The notes under the pieces are model-generated. The model ran no database searches, was not told the DNA's origin, and saw only the letters and a list, made by a program, of their open reading frames with translations. From IMG/VR virus record IMGVR_UViG_3300011116_000567, positions 1-43,645 of that record: 43,645 nt of DNA. One strand, given 5' to 3'. Both the position numbers and the translations under genes were made by a program. Shown in pieces: positions 18,989-27,735 of the stretch. Positions within the stretch are counted from its first letter, which is position 1, and every line of letters begins with the position of its first letter. This DNA is from a virus.

Positions 18989-19426
18989 TTATACTAATGC
19001 GTTGATGTAAGCGAACTCGCCAAAGTGTTTCAGCGCTGCTTTATTATATGCATATGCTGCTTCCTCTTTGGTTATATAAGTACCTAGATGAATCTTTTTG
19101 CCCTTAACTTTTATGTGGGCTGACCAGCTCGGCCCATTTTTGTGAACACTTTTATATCCTGAAGAATTAATAACCATAGAACGGTTTGCCATATTCTGAC
19201 TTTGTGTGGCATAGCGTAAGTTTTCTCTGCGATTGTCTAATCCATTATGATTAATGTGATCTACGTTACACTCTTCTGTAAGAATTAATTTATGTAAGTA
19301 TATAGTTTTTCCATTAATCTGTGTGCGTGCATATCCATGATCTTCCCCGAACGGAAAATTCTCTAATAGATACAGATCTTGAGGAGATACAAGAAAACCA
19401 CGCTGCAAATTAATTTTTAGGTACAT
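18989..19426 (-). CDS. HNH homing endonuclease with AP2 domain, about 145 aa
   Basis: The HNH core is NVDHINHNGLDNRRENLRYA, followed by an AP2 domain (YKSVHKNGPSWSAHIKV, HLGTYITKEEAAYAYN). The layout matches the enzyme at 16697-17122, though the two differ clearly in sequence, so they are separate acquisitions or old duplicates. I use the ATG at 19426. An in-frame GTG at 19456 would add ten residues, and neither has a strong ribosome binding site. A 200-bp non-coding leader with several predicted stems precedes it. Confidence 0.88.
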   Translation of the reverse strand: MYLKINLQRGFLVSPQDLYLLENFPFGEDHGYARTQINGKTIYLHKLILTEECNVDHINHNGLDNRRENLRYATQSQNMANRSMVINSSGYKSVHKNGPSWSAHIKVKGKKIHLGTYITKEEAAYAYNKAALKHFGEFAYINALV

Positions 19427-19454
19427 ATTGACTTTTATACTGTCGCATAAGTAC

Positions 19455-19622
19455 ACACACTAGATTTCTGCATTGACCTAGATAGAGAAGGAACTATTGG
19501 GTGATAAGGCCAAGAGATCTAGTTACCAGCTAATGTGTGCGCTTATGAGAAGTAATGAGCAGTTTTACATCATGCTCAGGATACACCACGTTAAGACTCT
19601 ATATCTATGGGCGTAGTGGTGT
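19455..19622 (-). other. Structured intergenic segment upstream of the HNH gene
   Basis: Read as - strand RNA, four stems are visible: 19583-19589 with 19616-19622 (ACACCAC type, 7 bp), 19556-19561 with 19573-19578 (TGAGCA, 6 bp), and a 9-bp stem with one G-U (19455-19463 with 19530-19538) enclosing a 6-bp stem (19478-19483 with 19517-19522). No tRNA T-arm or group I intron core could be convincingly traced. It could be a structured leader or an intron remnant. Confidence 0.4.
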
Positions 19623-20468: not shown

Positions 20469-22178
20469 TTAAGATTGCAAATCTCCTGATTCTTTCTTAC
20501 CCTTGAAGTACTCTGCTTTCTCAGCTAATGTGTTACCTTTGATACGTTGCGATTTAATTCCATTGGTGAATGTATCAGGCTCACAGATTATAAATAGTTC
20601 TTTCTTCGCACGAGTTACTGCGGTGTATAGAAGTTCTCTTTGTAACATAGTTGCATGAGAATTGTGGAATAGTAGAAACACTTTATCCCATTCAGAGCCT
20701 TGGGATTTATGTACTGTAAGTGCATAACCTAAGATAAGCGCATTTACTTCTGCTGCTTTTGTGATTGTTTTCTCTGAGTCTGAATCTTGCATCAGAAGTT
20801 TGATGTGGTGAGAGGATTGGGTTACCCTATCTTCATCATCTGCTGCAACTTGTGCGAGAAGGAAATCTACATCATCCTCACTATAGGTTGTATCTGAGTC
20901 TGATTTTGCACTGTCAGAATTATGGCCCCAATAGTCTAAGAATACTGAGGCGCCCTGGGGTGATACACCTGTGTAAGATGGGTTAGGGTAAATGTCTAGA
21001 ATGATTGCATCCTCGCGATCATATAATACTTTATCTCCGATTGAGAAATAATGTTTTATGAATCCTGCGATCACCTCATGTACGATGCGTTGATGTTTCT
21101 TTGCCATATGGGTTGCGAGAGATTTATTAATCTCAAGTGTGCCATATGATTTATTAAATGGAATTAGAATGATGTCATTTTCTGGGTTGTATTTACCTTC
21201 CTCGTATAGTTTATTGAATAGTTTTTCTGTAACTGTGAGTGCGTTTTCTGCTTCTATTTTCTTTTTCCATGGAGTCACACTTAGTCCTGGTACGTTCCAT
21301 TCTGGAAGTTCTTTAGAGGAAATTGGATTACCTGATAGAATTCTGTGAGCAAGTCGTATGATAGGGGATTCGAGAGCTTGACGATATACCTCAGTTAATT
21401 CGATTGTAGGTAATTCTGAGAGTTTGAATCCTAGAATCGCTGGCCCGAAGACTGGAGGTAATTGTTGTATATCACCTAGGAAAATGATTTGAACAGAATG
21501 ACCTAAAGCGTCTATGATCTCCTGATATAGAGTTGTGGAAATCATAGATGATTCTTCAAATATGATCGTAGTTATTCCGCGCGGTAATGGATTGATTGCA
21601 TTACGTTGAGGTGAGAATTTCATTGAAGTTTTCTCTTCTCCTTTATCATTTATAACTTGGAAATACTCCGGCCCATATTCGAGGAGTTTATGAATTGTGA
21701 TGCAATTATCTTTCATAGATGCATCCATATTTCTCCGAATATTATTGGTTGCGCGCCGTGTGTATGCACAGATTACAATTCCGGGCACACCTTGTGGAAG
21801 ATATTTATGGTCATGATTGGCCAGAATTCCAGTGAATGATTGTTGGATTAGATTCTGAACTGTGCCTTTCATACAAGTTGTTTTACCTGTACCTGCGGCG
21901 CCTATTAGACAACATGACTTACCTGAGCCGGATAGATCAATAAATGATTGTTGTGCATGATTATAGGTAATTGAATTACCATATTTATCTGTTGTTGATG
22001 ATAGGAATGCTGCTTTGTCATCTTCTATTTGGATGATTTTGGCTGCAAGTAGTTGTTCTGAAATTGCGGTGAGTTCAGATGGCGGCTTAGATATGATAGT
22101 TTGTGGAGATTGTGATTCCGCTGCTAGCTTACGTGCGCGAGCTAGAGCTAGTATCTCTGCAAATTTGGAGGATGACAT
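20469..22178 (-). CDS. Superfamily 1B DNA helicase (RecD/Dda/Pif1-like), 569 aa
   Basis: Helicase motifs appear in order: motif I GAAGTGKTT (93-101), a Tyr-rich CAYTRRATNNI segment (Ia), motif II IIFEESSM (208-212; Glu in place of the usual Asp at the first acidic position), motif III LGDIQQLPP (234-242), a C-terminal VHKSQGSEWD (motif V) and YTAVTRAKKEL (motif VI). This is the RecD/Dda arrangement, 5'-3' helicases that support replication or recombination. No RecB or RecC partner is present, so it acts alone as Dda does. It follows the 355-aa unknown gene by 20 bases. Confidence 0.9.
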   Translation of the reverse strand: MSSSKFAEILALARARKLAAESQSPQTIISKPPSELTAISEQLLAAKIIQIEDDKAAFLSSTTDKYGNSITYNHAQQSFIDLSGSGKSCCLIGAAGTGKTTCMKGTVQNLIQQSFTGILANHDHKYLPQGVPGIVICAYTRRATNNIRRNMDASMKDNCITIHKLLEYGPEYFQVINDKGEEKTSMKFSPQRNAINPLPRGITTIIFEESSMISTTLYQEIIDALGHSVQIIFLGDIQQLPPVFGPAILGFKLSELPTIELTEVYRQALESPIIRLAHRILSGNPISSKELPEWNVPGLSVTPWKKKIEAENALTVTEKLFNKLYEEGKYNPENDIILIPFNKSYGTLEINKSLATHMAKKHQRIVHEVIAGFIKHYFSIGDKVLYDREDAIILDIYPNPSYTGVSPQGASVFLDYWGHNSDSAKSDSDTTYSEDDVDFLLAQVAADDEDRVTQSSHHIKLLMQDSDSEKTITKAAEVNALILGYALTVHKSQGSEWDKVFLLFHNSHATMLQRELLYTAVTRAKKELFIICEPDTFTNGIKSQRIKGNTLAEKAEYFKGKKESGDLQS

Positions 22179-22198: not shown

Positions 22199-23266
22199 TT
22201 AGAATGGTGCATCTTCGATTGGAGATTGTGGAGATTGTGGAGATTGTGTGGGCGGATTCAGTGAAGGAGATTGAAGGATTTTGTAATTCTGTGCAATATT
22301 CCAGCGTGCTTTTGCTTTAATGTAAGAGATTGTATCAGGGTACTGATTACGTTGTGGCTCATTTTGCGGTGCAGTGTCGATCATATTTTGTATATTGGCA
22401 TCTTCTGCCGATTCAGTTGGTTTAAGGATTCTATAAGATGTGAGAGAATTGCGAGATAGGTCAATGTCTCCGAGACCTAAATAATTCCTCTGCATCTCTG
22501 CACCTTTTCGTAGATATTTCATAAGGGCCATTGCGTAGATAGAACCATCAATTACTATGTTCTCTTCGCAATGTTCTATGAGTTCTCTTAGGTCTGATTC
22601 AGGGATTTGAAATATTGTCTCTGCGCGTGCACATTTGATAATGATAGATTCCCAATATTCGTCAAGACTTGTTTTCACGCCTCTAATAGTGACTGAGAAT
22701 GTAGGAAAATCACCTGCGATTCTTGCCCAATTTGCTAGAATCTTAGGGTAATCTTCTATGTTTTTATGAGATGATTTAATTAGTTTTTGGAGGCTATTTT
22801 CACGGCGTAAGAGTTCTTGGTCATTTTCGTGAGATTTGATATTATCAAGCCAATCATTGTAGTTTTGATTCCAGATTTGAATCCAATGATAGGTGTTTTC
22901 AAGTGTTGCAGTATCTGGAGAGATTACGAAATGAGGCAATATAAATGATGGATGTTTTATAATGTCGATTTTGCCTACAATGTGGATTAGTTGTTCCATA
23001 TTGTTTGCTACGATTGATGCAGTCTTAGGTGTATAAGATGCAGGTACACGCCATTCGATAAGAGAAGTTGAGTGGAGCAGGGAGAGATAGGTGAGATAGG
23101 ATTCTGTAGGTGTTAGTTTACCATTGGACCACAGACCTGCTAAAGCTATTAGTTTTTTCTTAGATACATGGAATAGTGGATGTGTAACTTCGCGAGATGA
23201 GATTGCGAATGGTAGATGTTCACAAGAGAATTCCACACTACTGTATGCACATATGATTTTTGCCAT
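22199..23266 (-). CDS. Hypothetical early protein, 355 aa, with Pro/Ser/Gln tail
   Basis: Function not recognised. The protein is mainly helical with many Trp (for example NTYHWIQIWNQNYNDWLDNI). The C-terminal 25 residues are low-complexity with SPQSPQSP, coded by three tandem GGAGATTGT units (about 22220-22246). The acidic ending IEDAPF resembles the protein-interaction tails of single-strand-binding proteins (inference). GAAAGGAAATTGT precedes the ATG. Located directly before the helicase, it is a candidate replication or loading partner. Confidence 0.65.
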   Translation of the reverse strand: MAKIICAYSSVEFSCEHLPFAISSREVTHPLFHVSKKKLIALAGLWSNGKLTPTESYLTYLSLLHSTSLIEWRVPASYTPKTASIVANNMEQLIHIVGKIDIIKHPSFILPHFVISPDTATLENTYHWIQIWNQNYNDWLDNIKSHENDQELLRRENSLQKLIKSSHKNIEDYPKILANWARIAGDFPTFSVTIRGVKTSLDEYWESIIIKCARAETIFQIPESDLRELIEHCEENIVIDGSIYAMALMKYLRKGAEMQRNYLGLGDIDLSRNSLTSYRILKPTESAEDANIQNMIDTAPQNEPQRNQYPDTISYIKAKARWNIAQNYKILQSPSLNPPTQSPQSPQSPIEDAPF

Positions 23267-23278
23267 ACAATTTCCTTT

Positions 23279-23569
23279 CTATAGACCCATTATTTTAGAT
23301 TCGTATGCCGCTTCTTCTTCTTGTGTCATAAGATTATTCTCATATCTCTGACGCTCTGCGACTTCAGATTGTTTAATCAGATGGGTCTCAGATAGTTTAT
23401 ATGCGGGTGATATTGCACCTACTTCCACTTTTGCTACCAATGGAATTAATACTTTTCTAACTGAAATATCATCAGGTGATTCTGTGATTCCAGTCAGTTG
23501 TATTATATGTTTAATTTGGGATAATGTGAGTACAGGGCGAAATTTAGTGAGTGAGTGAGAGGTTGTCAT
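23279..23569 (-). CDS. Hypothetical protein, 96 aa
   Basis: Unknown function. The first half has FRPVLTLSQIKHIIQLTG followed by VRKVLIPLVAKVEVG, which looks like two helices and a strand. The second half is charged and helical. GGAG lies upstream of the start. It is part of the run of short early genes upstream of the helicase, with spacings of 1-12 bases. Confidence 0.62.
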   Translation of the reverse strand: MTTSHSLTKFRPVLTLSQIKHIIQLTGITESPDDISVRKVLIPLVAKVEVGAISPAYKLSETHLIKQSEVAERQRYENNLMTQEEEAAYESKIMGL

Positions 23570-23823: not shown

Positions 23824-24075
23824 TTAGTTCTCTGCTTTCTCATTTATATATAATTTAACTTGATTTGCAATGGTTGATTTTGTAACCCCGAATTCAGAGT
23901 ATTGATTCATACAATATGTGTATAGAGAATCAATACTCCAATTAGGATTCTCTCGAAGGAAATTATATATTAGAACTTCGGCGTGGGTGCCCTGATAGGA
24001 TCGCATTTTTGGTCGATTAGATAGGCGAAGCCGGGAAATATCTCGCATTGATGCATAGTCTGTTGGATGTGCCAT
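23824..24075 (-). CDS. Hypothetical protein with possible DNA-binding fold, 83 aa
   Basis: Unknown function. The N-terminus is basic (MRDISRLRLSNRPKMRSYQG). The rest reads as helices with a turn (NWSIDSLYTYCMNQYSEFGV, TKSTIANQVKLYIN), which could form a small helix-turn-helix, but I cannot assign a family. GGAGAGTAATTTATC precedes the ATG. Confidence 0.6.
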   Translation of the reverse strand: MAHPTDYASMRDISRLRLSNRPKMRSYQGTHAEVLIYNFLRENPNWSIDSLYTYCMNQYSEFGVTKSTIANQVKLYINEKAEN

Positions 24076-24432: not shown

Positions 24433-24529
24433 GATATGTATTACCTCTAAATGTGTGAGAGATTCTAGGTTTCTTAACTCATTTACGAATTAAGAATATA
24501 AAATCCTCTGGTCTGACCTCTGGCACGCC

Positions 24530-24558
24530 AACCAGTCTGCCACAATGCCACAATGCCA
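24530..24558. repeat. 8-bp-period TGCCA iteron array 1
   Basis: TGCCA begins at 24538, 24546 and 24554, exactly 8 bases apart, within two tandem CCACAATG units; a degenerate copy (AACCA) lies one period upstream at 24530. Confidence 0.75.
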
Positions 24559-24715
24559 AACCCCTGTCAACCCCCCCCCTGAAGGCACCATACAATTCAT
24601 CTAATATAACTATATGCAATCCGAAGGATTGTGAGAGATAGTAGGTATGTTATATAGAGCATCTAACGGTATATTTAGGGGGTATCAAAATTATTTATAT
24701 AAAATATAATAGGGG

Positions 24716-24781
24716 ACTATATTAACTATCCTATACCTATACACTTAATCTAACTATGATGTGTAGGATAGTTAATATAGT
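24716..24781. repeat. 21-bp inverted repeat in AT-rich DNA
   Basis: The left arm 24716-24736 and right arm 24761-24781 are inverted copies with one mismatch, core AACTATCCTA / TAGGATAGTT, separated by 24 bases. There is no T run after either side, so an operator, origin element or cruciform is more likely than a terminator. Confidence 0.8.
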
Positions 24782-24849
24782 TGGGTGGAGTTAATATAAG
24801 TATATAGTGTTGTATTTATGCCACACCTAGGCACCCTTCACCCAACATC

Positions 24850-24895
24850 TGGCATTCTGGCAGATTGGCATTCTGTCACCTGTGCCAAAGTGCCA
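24850..24895. repeat. 8-bp-period TGGCA/TGCCA iteron array 2
   Basis: TGGCA begins at 24850, 24858 and 24866, with a variant TGTCA at 24874, all 8 bases apart. The inverted form TGCCA follows at 24883 and 24891, again 8 apart. The array lies just downstream of the 74-aa gene's stop. Confidence 0.8.
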
Positions 24896-24910
24896 TAGTA
24901 GAATCTAATA

Positions 24911-25135
24911 TTAAAATGAATCACACCTATAAATAAATTGTGCTTTATCATTAGCATCAAATAGAACAGCGCATTCATTAGGTGTGAGAGCTAATTTAAT
25001 AGAATTTATCTCTTTCCTGCTTGGATGTCTGTGCCCCATATATAGAATATTATTCATACCACATGGGCGCTTAGTATCTTGCCAGTTAATTGCAATATTG
25101 GATAATTTGAATCTTGATACTATTATATTTGACAT
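24911..25135 (-). CDS. Hypothetical small protein, 74 aa
   Basis: Unknown function. I use ATG 25135 (MSNIIVSRF), which has TAGGGG seven bases upstream; a GTG 14 codons earlier lacks a site. The protein is mixed alpha/beta with several Arg/Lys, including HRHPSRKEINSIKLALTPNE. It sits between iteron arrays 2 and 3, so it is a candidate for the protein that binds them (context only). Confidence 0.6.
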   Translation of the reverse strand: MSNIIVSRFKLSNIAINWQDTKRPCGMNNILYMGHRHPSRKEINSIKLALTPNECAVLFDANDKAQFIYRCDSF

Positions 25136-25215
25136 AATAACCCCTATAAATTGCGAAGCATGGACAAAATCATCCACCGATTACACTAGAATCTAATCTA
25201 ATGCAATCTAGTATG

Positions 25216-25261
25216 ATTCTGGCAGTCTGACATTGTGTATGGTGTGCCAGACTGCCAGAAT
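25216..25261. repeat. Palindromic 8-bp-period iteron array 3
   Basis: TGGCA (25220) and TGACA (25228) are followed by inverted TGCCA at 25245 and 25253. The same bases form a 14-bp perfect inverted repeat, ATTCTGGCAGTCTG with CAGACTGCCAGAAT (17 bp with one mismatch). It lies upstream of the 74-aa gene and downstream of the 64-aa gene. No T run follows, so it is probably an operator. Confidence 0.8.
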
Positions 25262-25573: not shown

Positions 25574-26215
25574 TTAGAATCCCAAATCAAGCAATTCTGA
25601 CACTTCGGGTGGATTAAGGCGATTATAGAATCGCTTATAAATTGCATCTCCGCCCATATCACCCTCAGCCAATCGTAACAATTTAGTCAATGCATCAGCC
25701 ACTTTAGTAGGAATCTTCGCTTTCGATCCGAGAGAATCTGCAAACGCCTTACATGTTGCATTTACTCGCTTCTCAATATCCGCATCACTCACGCCATTCT
25801 CCATCAGTTTTTCAGTGTATGGGATTGCGAGATACTCTGTGAACCATCCACTAATCCTTGCGGAATCCCATTTATCGCCTACGGATTCAGAGAATATATA
25901 AGCCACTAATGCATCTTGCCCTATATCCTCTGTTCTAACTTCCTTCTTACCTGACTTCAAATTATCCGCAATGATTCCATTCTGTACAGTCTTGAAATAA
26001 TCAATACAGATACCTTGGATTGTAGGATTCGTAAAATCTACATCTCCCACCGTAAGGTGCGGAATCGAAGTCGCCATGGTTTGTTGCAAAAATTGACCAT
26101 AATTCCCATCTTTATCTTTCTTCGCAATTGTAACAACCAATCGTTGACCATCGAATGGCTTAGATTTTTTAGCGTCATAGACTTGCGCAGTGTGAACATT
26201 AGATACTACTGACAT
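25574..26215 (-). CDS. Early protein of unknown function, 213 aa
   Basis: Function not recognised. I use ATG 26215 (MSVVSNV), which has CGAGAA upstream, over an ATG six codons earlier. It has a beta-prone first half with a KKDKDGNYG turn, then a helical half ending with PTKVADALTKLLRLAEGD and an acidic tail. Order and spacing of segments resemble the 225-aa protein at 19627-20304, so they may be diverged paralogues. A palindrome and an inverted repeat lie in its leader, and tandem hairpins follow the stop, pointing to separate regulation and high expression. Confidence 0.68.
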   Translation of the reverse strand: MSVVSNVHTAQVYDAKKSKPFDGQRLVVTIAKKDKDGNYGQFLQQTMATSIPHLTVGDVDFTNPTIQGICIDYFKTVQNGIIADNLKSGKKEVRTEDIGQDALVAYIFSESVGDKWDSARISGWFTEYLAIPYTEKLMENGVSDADIEKRVNATCKAFADSLGSKAKIPTKVADALTKLLRLAEGDMGGDAIYKRFYNRLNPPEVSELLDLGF

Positions 26216-26246
26216 GATATATTCTCGATTCATAAAATGATGGTTT

Positions 26247-27144: not shown

Positions 27145-27735
27145 ATGGCCACCTCCACCACCACAAACACAGAAGAACGCGCTCTCACACTATTAGGACA
27201 AGGTGTACCTCCGCAGGCAGTTGCCAATGCACTCGGAGTTGACATATCTCGCATCTCCCAACTACTTTCACAAGATGATTTCGCAGCCAAAGTTGTAGAA
27301 AAGAAGTTCGAATCTCTCTCAAAATACAATGAGCGCGACTCTCACATAGATGACCTAGAGGATAAACTAATTAAAAAGCTGCATGATTGCTTACCTTTCA
27401 TGACGCGCCCAATGGAAATATTAAAATCATTCCAAGTATTAAATGCAGCAAAACGCAGAGGAGCAAGCGCGCCAGAAGACCTAACACAAAAACAGACCAT
27501 CATAAATCTCAATATTCCCAAAATTATCATTGACAAATTCCAAACCAATATTCACAATCAAGTAGTCCAAGTCGGGCAACAGACCCTTGTTACCTTACCA
27601 TCTGGACAAATGTTAAAACAACTGGAGGCCTCAAATGCCGCCAAACTCTCCCACCAAGAAACTCCCCACAATGACCTCTACACAGTTAGCACACCAGCAG
27701 AAACAGTTAGAACTCAACAAGCAAGTGGCAGCTAA
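27145..27735 (+). CDS. Probable terminase small subunit, 196 aa
   Basis: The N-terminal region has a helix-turn-helix, ERALTLLGQGVPPQAVANAL followed by GVDISRISQLLSQDDF (residues about 11-46), as expected for the DNA-recognition domain of small terminases. A central helical and beta region fits oligomerisation, and the tail is polar. It is the first gene of the late arm, directly before the large terminase, with a TTAGGAAA site. Together they select and cut concatemeric DNA for packaging. Assignment rests on the helix-turn-helix plus position. Confidence 0.75.
   Translation: MATSTTTNTEERALTLLGQGVPPQAVANALGVDISRISQLLSQDDFAAKVVEKKFESLSKYNERDSHIDDLEDKLIKKLHDCLPFMTRPMEILKSFQVLNAAKRRGASAPEDLTQKQTIINLNIPKIIIDKFQTNIHNQVVQVGQQTLVTLPSGQMLKQLEASNAAKLSHQETPHNDLYTVSTPAETVRTQQASGS

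Follow-up and report, generated by a model that had tools for sequence, protein, structure and literature searches.

Mirror-image arrays of short repeats around an unstable core in a distant relative of Pseudomonas phages PaP2 and 119X: a candidate replication origin and early control region

The locus, its arrays and its early promoter

The window, by which we mean the whole analysed stretch of 43,645 nucleotides, represents a closed assembly of 43,518 bp, since the contig ends (1-127 and 43519-43645) are identical over 127 bases, an assembly overlap. At the DNA level it matched none of the phage records, and a prophage/host search of genome contigs found no relatives. The capsid protein belongs to the SU10 family. 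Major capsid protein and helicase are each 35% identical to those of PaP2/119X (Fredfastierviridae, Jamesmcgillvirus). Early genes run leftward from the gap studied here and encode the 355-aa protein, a Dda-like helicase, a PD-(D/E)XK nuclease, a Sak4-like protein, polA and a DUF3987 primase. Late genes run rightward, beginning with the small terminase at 27145. The features of the locus are collected in Table 1.

Table 1. Features at and around the repeat arrays (positions of the window; strand given where it applies)
Feature	Position	Strand	Remarks
Dda-like (RecD/UvrD-type) helicase	20469..22178	-	
355-aa protein, no fold match	22199..23266	-	gene directly upstream of helicase gene in relatives
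96-aa protein, KFRPYxT family	23279..23569	-	best candidate reader of the arrays
83-aa protein	23824..24075	-	sequence resembles winged helix-turn-helix
Array B (array 1, proximal)	24521..24558	-	TGGCAttgTGGCAttgTGGCAgacTGGTTggcgTGCCA on minus strand
-10-like CATTGT, putative	24542..24547	-	inside array B, 17 bp from -35
-35-like TTGACA, leftward early promoter	24565..24570	-	
Conserved core	24660..24710		minus strand: AT-rich run, TTTTGATA, CCCCC, TAAATATACCGTTAGATG
Least stable 100 bp of whole 43.6-kb genome	24683..24782		unwinding-element candidate
Imperfect inverted repeat	24716..24781		arms 21 nt, 95% complementary, 24 nt between
Array A (array 2, distal)	24850..24895	+	TGGCAttcTGGCAgatTGGCAttcTGTCAcctgTGCCAaagTGCCA, inverted relative to array B
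Array C (array 3)	25216..25261		17-nt inverted repeat, two units per arm
219-aa protein, no fold match	25574..26233	-	family in 65/69 loci, nearly always just upstream of array A
Small terminase	27145..27735	+	helix-turn-helix almost constant although array words differ between loci

An earlier note, made from the letters alone, had described three sets of TGGCA/TGCCA at an 8-bp period. The positions of the first two were confirmed, with TGCCA at 24538, 24546 and 24554, TGGCA at 24850, 24858 and 24866, TGTCA at 24874 and TGCCA at 24883 and 24891. For the third, TGGCA at 25220 and TGCCA at 25245 and 25253 were found as described, but the word at 25228 is TGACA, with one mismatch. This third set, array C, is an extra one and does not occur in the nearest relative, L003. 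The shuffle check proposed in that note also came out in its favour: the pattern TGGCA-N3-TGGCA matched six times in the 43.6-kb window, every time within 24538-25257; 100 dinucleotide shuffles gave 0.12 matches on average and never as many as six. Period-8 repeats of 5-mers numbered 78 in the whole window, 20 of them in this 800 bp, and none of 1000 shuffles of this region yielded an inverted array pair of equal strength.

Three properties had been missed. Arrays A and B are mirror images about the conserved core, each carries an inverted half-site on its outward side, TGG[CT][AT]-N4-TG[AC]CA, and array B coincides with a promoter. Array B consists of three period-8 units with the half-site at its outer edge. 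The outward half-site was present in both arrays at 5 of the 8 loci of the window's clade.

The hexamers at the proximal array suggest a sigma70-like early promoter (TTGACA-N17-yAnnnT) lying under array B. In 34 of the 41 loci scored, TTGAC preceded array B by no more than 70 bp, and TTGAC-N17(±1)-yAnnnT was found in 31 loci, the background being 1.3% per 85 bp. Array B covers the -10 element in the window's clade, whereas it begins just past it in other lineages. Its position on the early promoter suggests autoregulation.

Conserved layout with changing word and period

The comparison covered this locus in about 60 related viral contigs, which are distantly akin to the Pseudomonas phages PaP2/119X; homologues of the helicase came from 43 viral contigs and those of the 355-aa protein from 79 loci. 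All close relatives that reach the gap (L003, L004, L006-L009, L028) carry A and B in mirror orientation, so the comparison with relatives proposed in the earlier note came out in its favour too. Read along early transcription, array A is TGACAnnnTGCCAnnnTGCCA.. in these relatives and array B is TTGACA-N6-[TGGCANNN]2-4-TGGYTggnnTGCCA. In the wider set, two inverted arrays often occur at the same place, usually 220-440 bp apart, and an unbiased scan revealed that word and period differ by lineage while the layout is kept in distant relatives. Next to TGGCA/8 of the window lineage, we found RGTCT, RGTCA, CCAATTAA and TCCTATTA at a period of 8 bp, AGTCT, GTTAA and GTCAC at 7 bp, CAGTCTGCA at 9 bp, and GTGCTACTAT, TACCATCAAT and AGCAC at 10 bp. 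The note had taken the fixed 8-bp period as a pointer to a protein of the met-box type. This was not supported: with periods of 7, 8, 9 or 10 bp at the same place in relatives, the period alone does not point to such a protein.

In PaP2, 119X and PaMx41 the corresponding place is occupied by ACCTTG arrays with a period of about 10 bp, which in PaP2 enclose the 100 bp of lowest stability in the genome. These phages differ from the window in word and period and in that no TTGACA promoter was seen at array B, and PaP2 has no detectable member of the 96-aa family.

Strict inverted pairs between the flanking genes were present in 24 of 57 non-redundant loci, whereas none of 47 control stretches (real downstream DNA of equal length) and none of 285 shuffles had one. 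Relaxed scoring let 41 of 65 loci pass, a few of which (L029, L037, L111) appear spurious. The direct-orientation control gave 17 of 71 matches in the first scan and, when limited to the interval between the flanking genes, 9 of 57 versus 24 inverted; the latter count of direct matches arises in part because the arrays contain units in both orientations. Placed on the tree of the 355-aa protein, the array classes required 17 changes versus 27 with shuffled labels, indicating that the word drifts with the lineage, and the TGGCA class formed a single clade. One relative, L065/L007 (IMGVR_UViG_3300033060_000001), carries seven perfect TGGCATTC units in the array A that lies upstream of its 355-aa gene, apparently a recent expansion.

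The spacer between the arrays is conserved as well. A core of about 25 AT-rich bases, CCCC/GGGG, an A/T-rich stretch and approximately ACCGTAAG was recognized in 30 of 34 spacers and lies nearly midway, with about 105-290 bp to array A and 107-240 bp to array B. The AT-rich character that had been ascribed to this DNA was borne out locally, the least stable 100 bp of the genome falling in the spacer, but not in the mean, as the A+T content of spacers in relatives equals that of their surroundings (60.2% vs 59.6%). With windows of 60 and 100 bp, under 5% of random stretches equalled the spacer minimum in 85-91% of the 34 relatives; with 30-bp windows this applied to 76%. Kuura has its genome-wide stability minimum between the arrays with 60-bp windows. 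Inverted repeats are enriched in the spacers of relatives, and an Rfam search of the spacer hairpin returned sub-threshold miRNA matches only. The frequencies of DnaA boxes and IHF sites were not raised in spacers. One spacer, that of L135, contains two perfect inverted DnaA boxes (TTATCCACA / TGTGGATAA), the sole case among 34.

Candidate readers of the arrays

Early proteins of 64, 74 and 83 aa had been proposed as binders of the arrays. We do not favour any of them: for the first two, the relatives contain no convincing homologue, and the third, possibly a second regulator to judge from its sequence, is confined to the TGGCA clade. Nor did the early proteins scanned match a ribbon-helix-helix family in Pfam/PHROG. 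Operators of that class share with the locus the short units of 7-8 bp over a promoter; a unit period constant across the family was not found here.

Two families adjoin the locus almost throughout, the 219-aa protein (65 of 69 loci) and, before the helicase gene, the 355-aa protein (67 of 69). Neither matched a known family or fold, nor did the 355-aa protein match a known initiator. Structure prediction for both yielded no reliable fold match; the one significant viral structure match was to an unnamed protein with a TM-score below 0.3. The 355-aa protein is a candidate initiator or helicase loader. No conserved gene separates its gene from array B in L126/L127.

A better reader candidate than the three proposed proteins, and the best lead we have, is the 96-aa protein. 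Its family, marked by KFRPYxT and 96-130 aa long, has no known fold. It was encoded near the gap in 49 of 69 loci and, according to a whole-contig search, elsewhere on the contig in three further loci; the same search did not find it in the near-complete contigs with 10-bp arrays (L032, L033, L036, PaP2, Kuura) or in L127, which has 7-bp arrays. Between RGTCT and RGTCA phages, the KFRPYxT protein showed 18 separating columns, above all but one of 209 other splits, and the 355-aa protein showed 0. Within the RGTC group, a 20-column window of the KFRPYxT protein covaried with the array word (family-wise permutation p = 0.0065, corrected for the 355-aa protein, with five families tested; p 0.011-0.017 with other word lengths), whereas the 219-aa, the 355-aa and two terminase proteins did not (p 0.21 or more). 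Only this covariation indicates that the family would read the arrays, and linkage is a possible cause of it, the gene being often near them. When all loci are taken together, the terminase, 355-aa and 96-aa proteins each correlate with the word, because proteins and word both follow phylogeny. The small terminase seems an unlikely array reader, as its recognition helix (SRISQLL) changes very little between loci whose words differ.

Possible functions of the locus

We propose that 24521-24895 is a replication origin combined with the control region of the leftward early operon, a reading to which we give a probability of roughly 45%. The earlier note had suggested an undescribed operator/origin system. 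Several observations strengthen this suggestion: relatives keep the arrays, chance does not account for them, array 1 overlaps the promoter and the core resembles an unwinding element. The protein type deduced from the 8-bp period and the proposed binders were not supported.

An origin is favoured by the recurrence of inverted arrays at a single syntenic position across many relatives despite changes of word and period, together with the stability minimum, the enriched inverted repeats, the promoter at the proximal array, the adjacent genes for the 355-aa protein and the helicase, and the DnaA boxes of L135. Tandem short sites beside a local stability minimum, a trait of iteron-type origins, are present here. 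The conserved mid-spacer core argues in the same direction, as an operator alone would not need it. We also count in favour that the PaP2-like phage Shea persists as an episome (PMC13348215). Against an origin stand the lack of enrichment of DnaA boxes and IHF sites in spacers, the 355-aa protein without resemblance to known initiators or folds, and the mapped genome terminus of Kuura between its arrays, which fits packaging equally. Unstable AT-rich DNA is, moreover, found at promoters too. In the window, cumulative GC skew reaches its maximum at the locus, as is usual for a terminus, but in PaP2 the minimum lies close to it; with opposite sense in the two genomes, the skew is uninformative and was dropped as an origin indicator.

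Mechanistically, a phage-encoded protein may bind the short units cooperatively, starting at the inverted half-sites on the outside and extending inward over the direct units. Once both arrays were filled, the DNA between them would be strained and the AT-rich core at 24683-24782 would open, and the products of the replication genes that follow immediately downstream (355-aa protein, helicase, primase, polA) could load. On array B, the same protein would cover the -10 element and the transcription start and in this way limit early transcription.

The nearest documented parallel to such an array-core-array locus would be oriL/oriR of SPP1, where direct repeats and an AT-rich unwinding element are served by the gp38 initiator, the gp39 loader and the gp40 helicase (PMC6316719). 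The likeness lies in the tandem initiator sites next to an AT-rich unwinding element and in an early region that holds the genes for initiator, loader and helicase. Here, however, two mirror-image arrays flank the core, the units measure 7-10 bp with a word of 5-6 bp, array B lies over a promoter, and the phage encodes no known initiator.

Short units that follow one another without spacing, in direct and inverted orientation and over promoters, are familiar from the met boxes of MetJ. The heptad sites of omega (ParB) on pSM19035 are built alike, and the 7-8 bp units of our arrays resemble these omega operators (PMC9499535). Such likeness brings up the reading of the locus as a bipartite operator and nothing more: a phage repressor on A and B would loop out the 220-440 bp between them and shut the early promoter, and motif turnover would reflect immunity groups, as in superinfection-resistant pseudolysogeny. 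Shea does show superinfection resistance (PMC13348215), and in 31 loci array B lies over the promoter or immediately behind it. We nevertheless find this reading rather unlikely. It accounts for the promoter but predicts neither the mid-spacer core nor the genome-wide stability minimum, and the A-B distances are without firm helical phasing (Rayleigh p 0.04-0.15). From omega and MetJ the locus is also set apart by its period of 7-10 bp, by arrays split by a conserved core and by the absence of an identified ribbon-helix-helix protein.

It seems less probable still that the arrays flank a terminase cleavage site, as do pacL/pacR of SPP1 or the short repeats SRL/SRR beside the terminal repeat of T7. 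The hint in favour of this packaging junction comes from a distant relative, Caulobacter phage Kuura, with a 606-bp terminal repeat by PhageTerm (PMC9959647): its GGGCA (GGGCAGT) array pair, of about 10-bp period, flanks the left boundary of that repeat (L140 43025-43290), so that the arrays enclose, as in pacL-pacC-pacR, a short interval that in Kuura holds the genome terminus. Furthermore, 14 of 34 loci have the C-rich GACCCC after array A (background 0.9%), and pac of SPP1 overlaps promoters (PMC6316719). The records of PaP2, 119X and PaMx41 open inside the spacer, but a record start of the PaP2 type may be convention, and TF17 and Neko open elsewhere. The difference from SPP1 pac and T7 SRL/SRR lies in the small terminase, whose SRISQLL helix does not follow the array word and which shows no covariation within the RGTC group. 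A centromere-like site, at which a ParR/omega-like protein would act in partition and so maintain the episome, is highly improbable in our view: short-repeat arrays around a promoter are typical of such sites (PMC9499535) and a PaP2 relative persists as an episome, but no ParA-, ParM- or TubZ-like ATPase/GTPase was present among the genes scanned, a set that took in part of the small genes.

Word and period might be re-specified in each lineage together with a small reader (96-130 aa, KFRPYxT) while promoter, core and mirror geometry stay fixed. The locus would then be an origin/immunity module that diversifies itself into mutually orthogonal versions and is served by a new DNA-binding family, a reading that we regard as doubtful. 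For a phage group that is widespread but almost unstudied, and to which the cultured Pseudomonas phages PaP2, 119X, PaMx41 and Shea belong, a previously unexplained repeat now offers a candidate replication origin and early switch that can be put to the test. One fixed architecture with at least a dozen words and four periods constitutes a natural experiment on the co-evolution of specificity and array, and word turnover could account for compatibility or immunity groups and for the reported episomal carrier state.

Two minor observations concern the early genes as such. The window encodes among them a 155-aa protein (18989-19456, minus strand) that resembles an HNH homing endonuclease and has homologues in only 3 of the 43 helicase-matched loci. 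Long alanine-rich stretches of low complexity occur in early proteins of L118, L130, L027 and other relatives.
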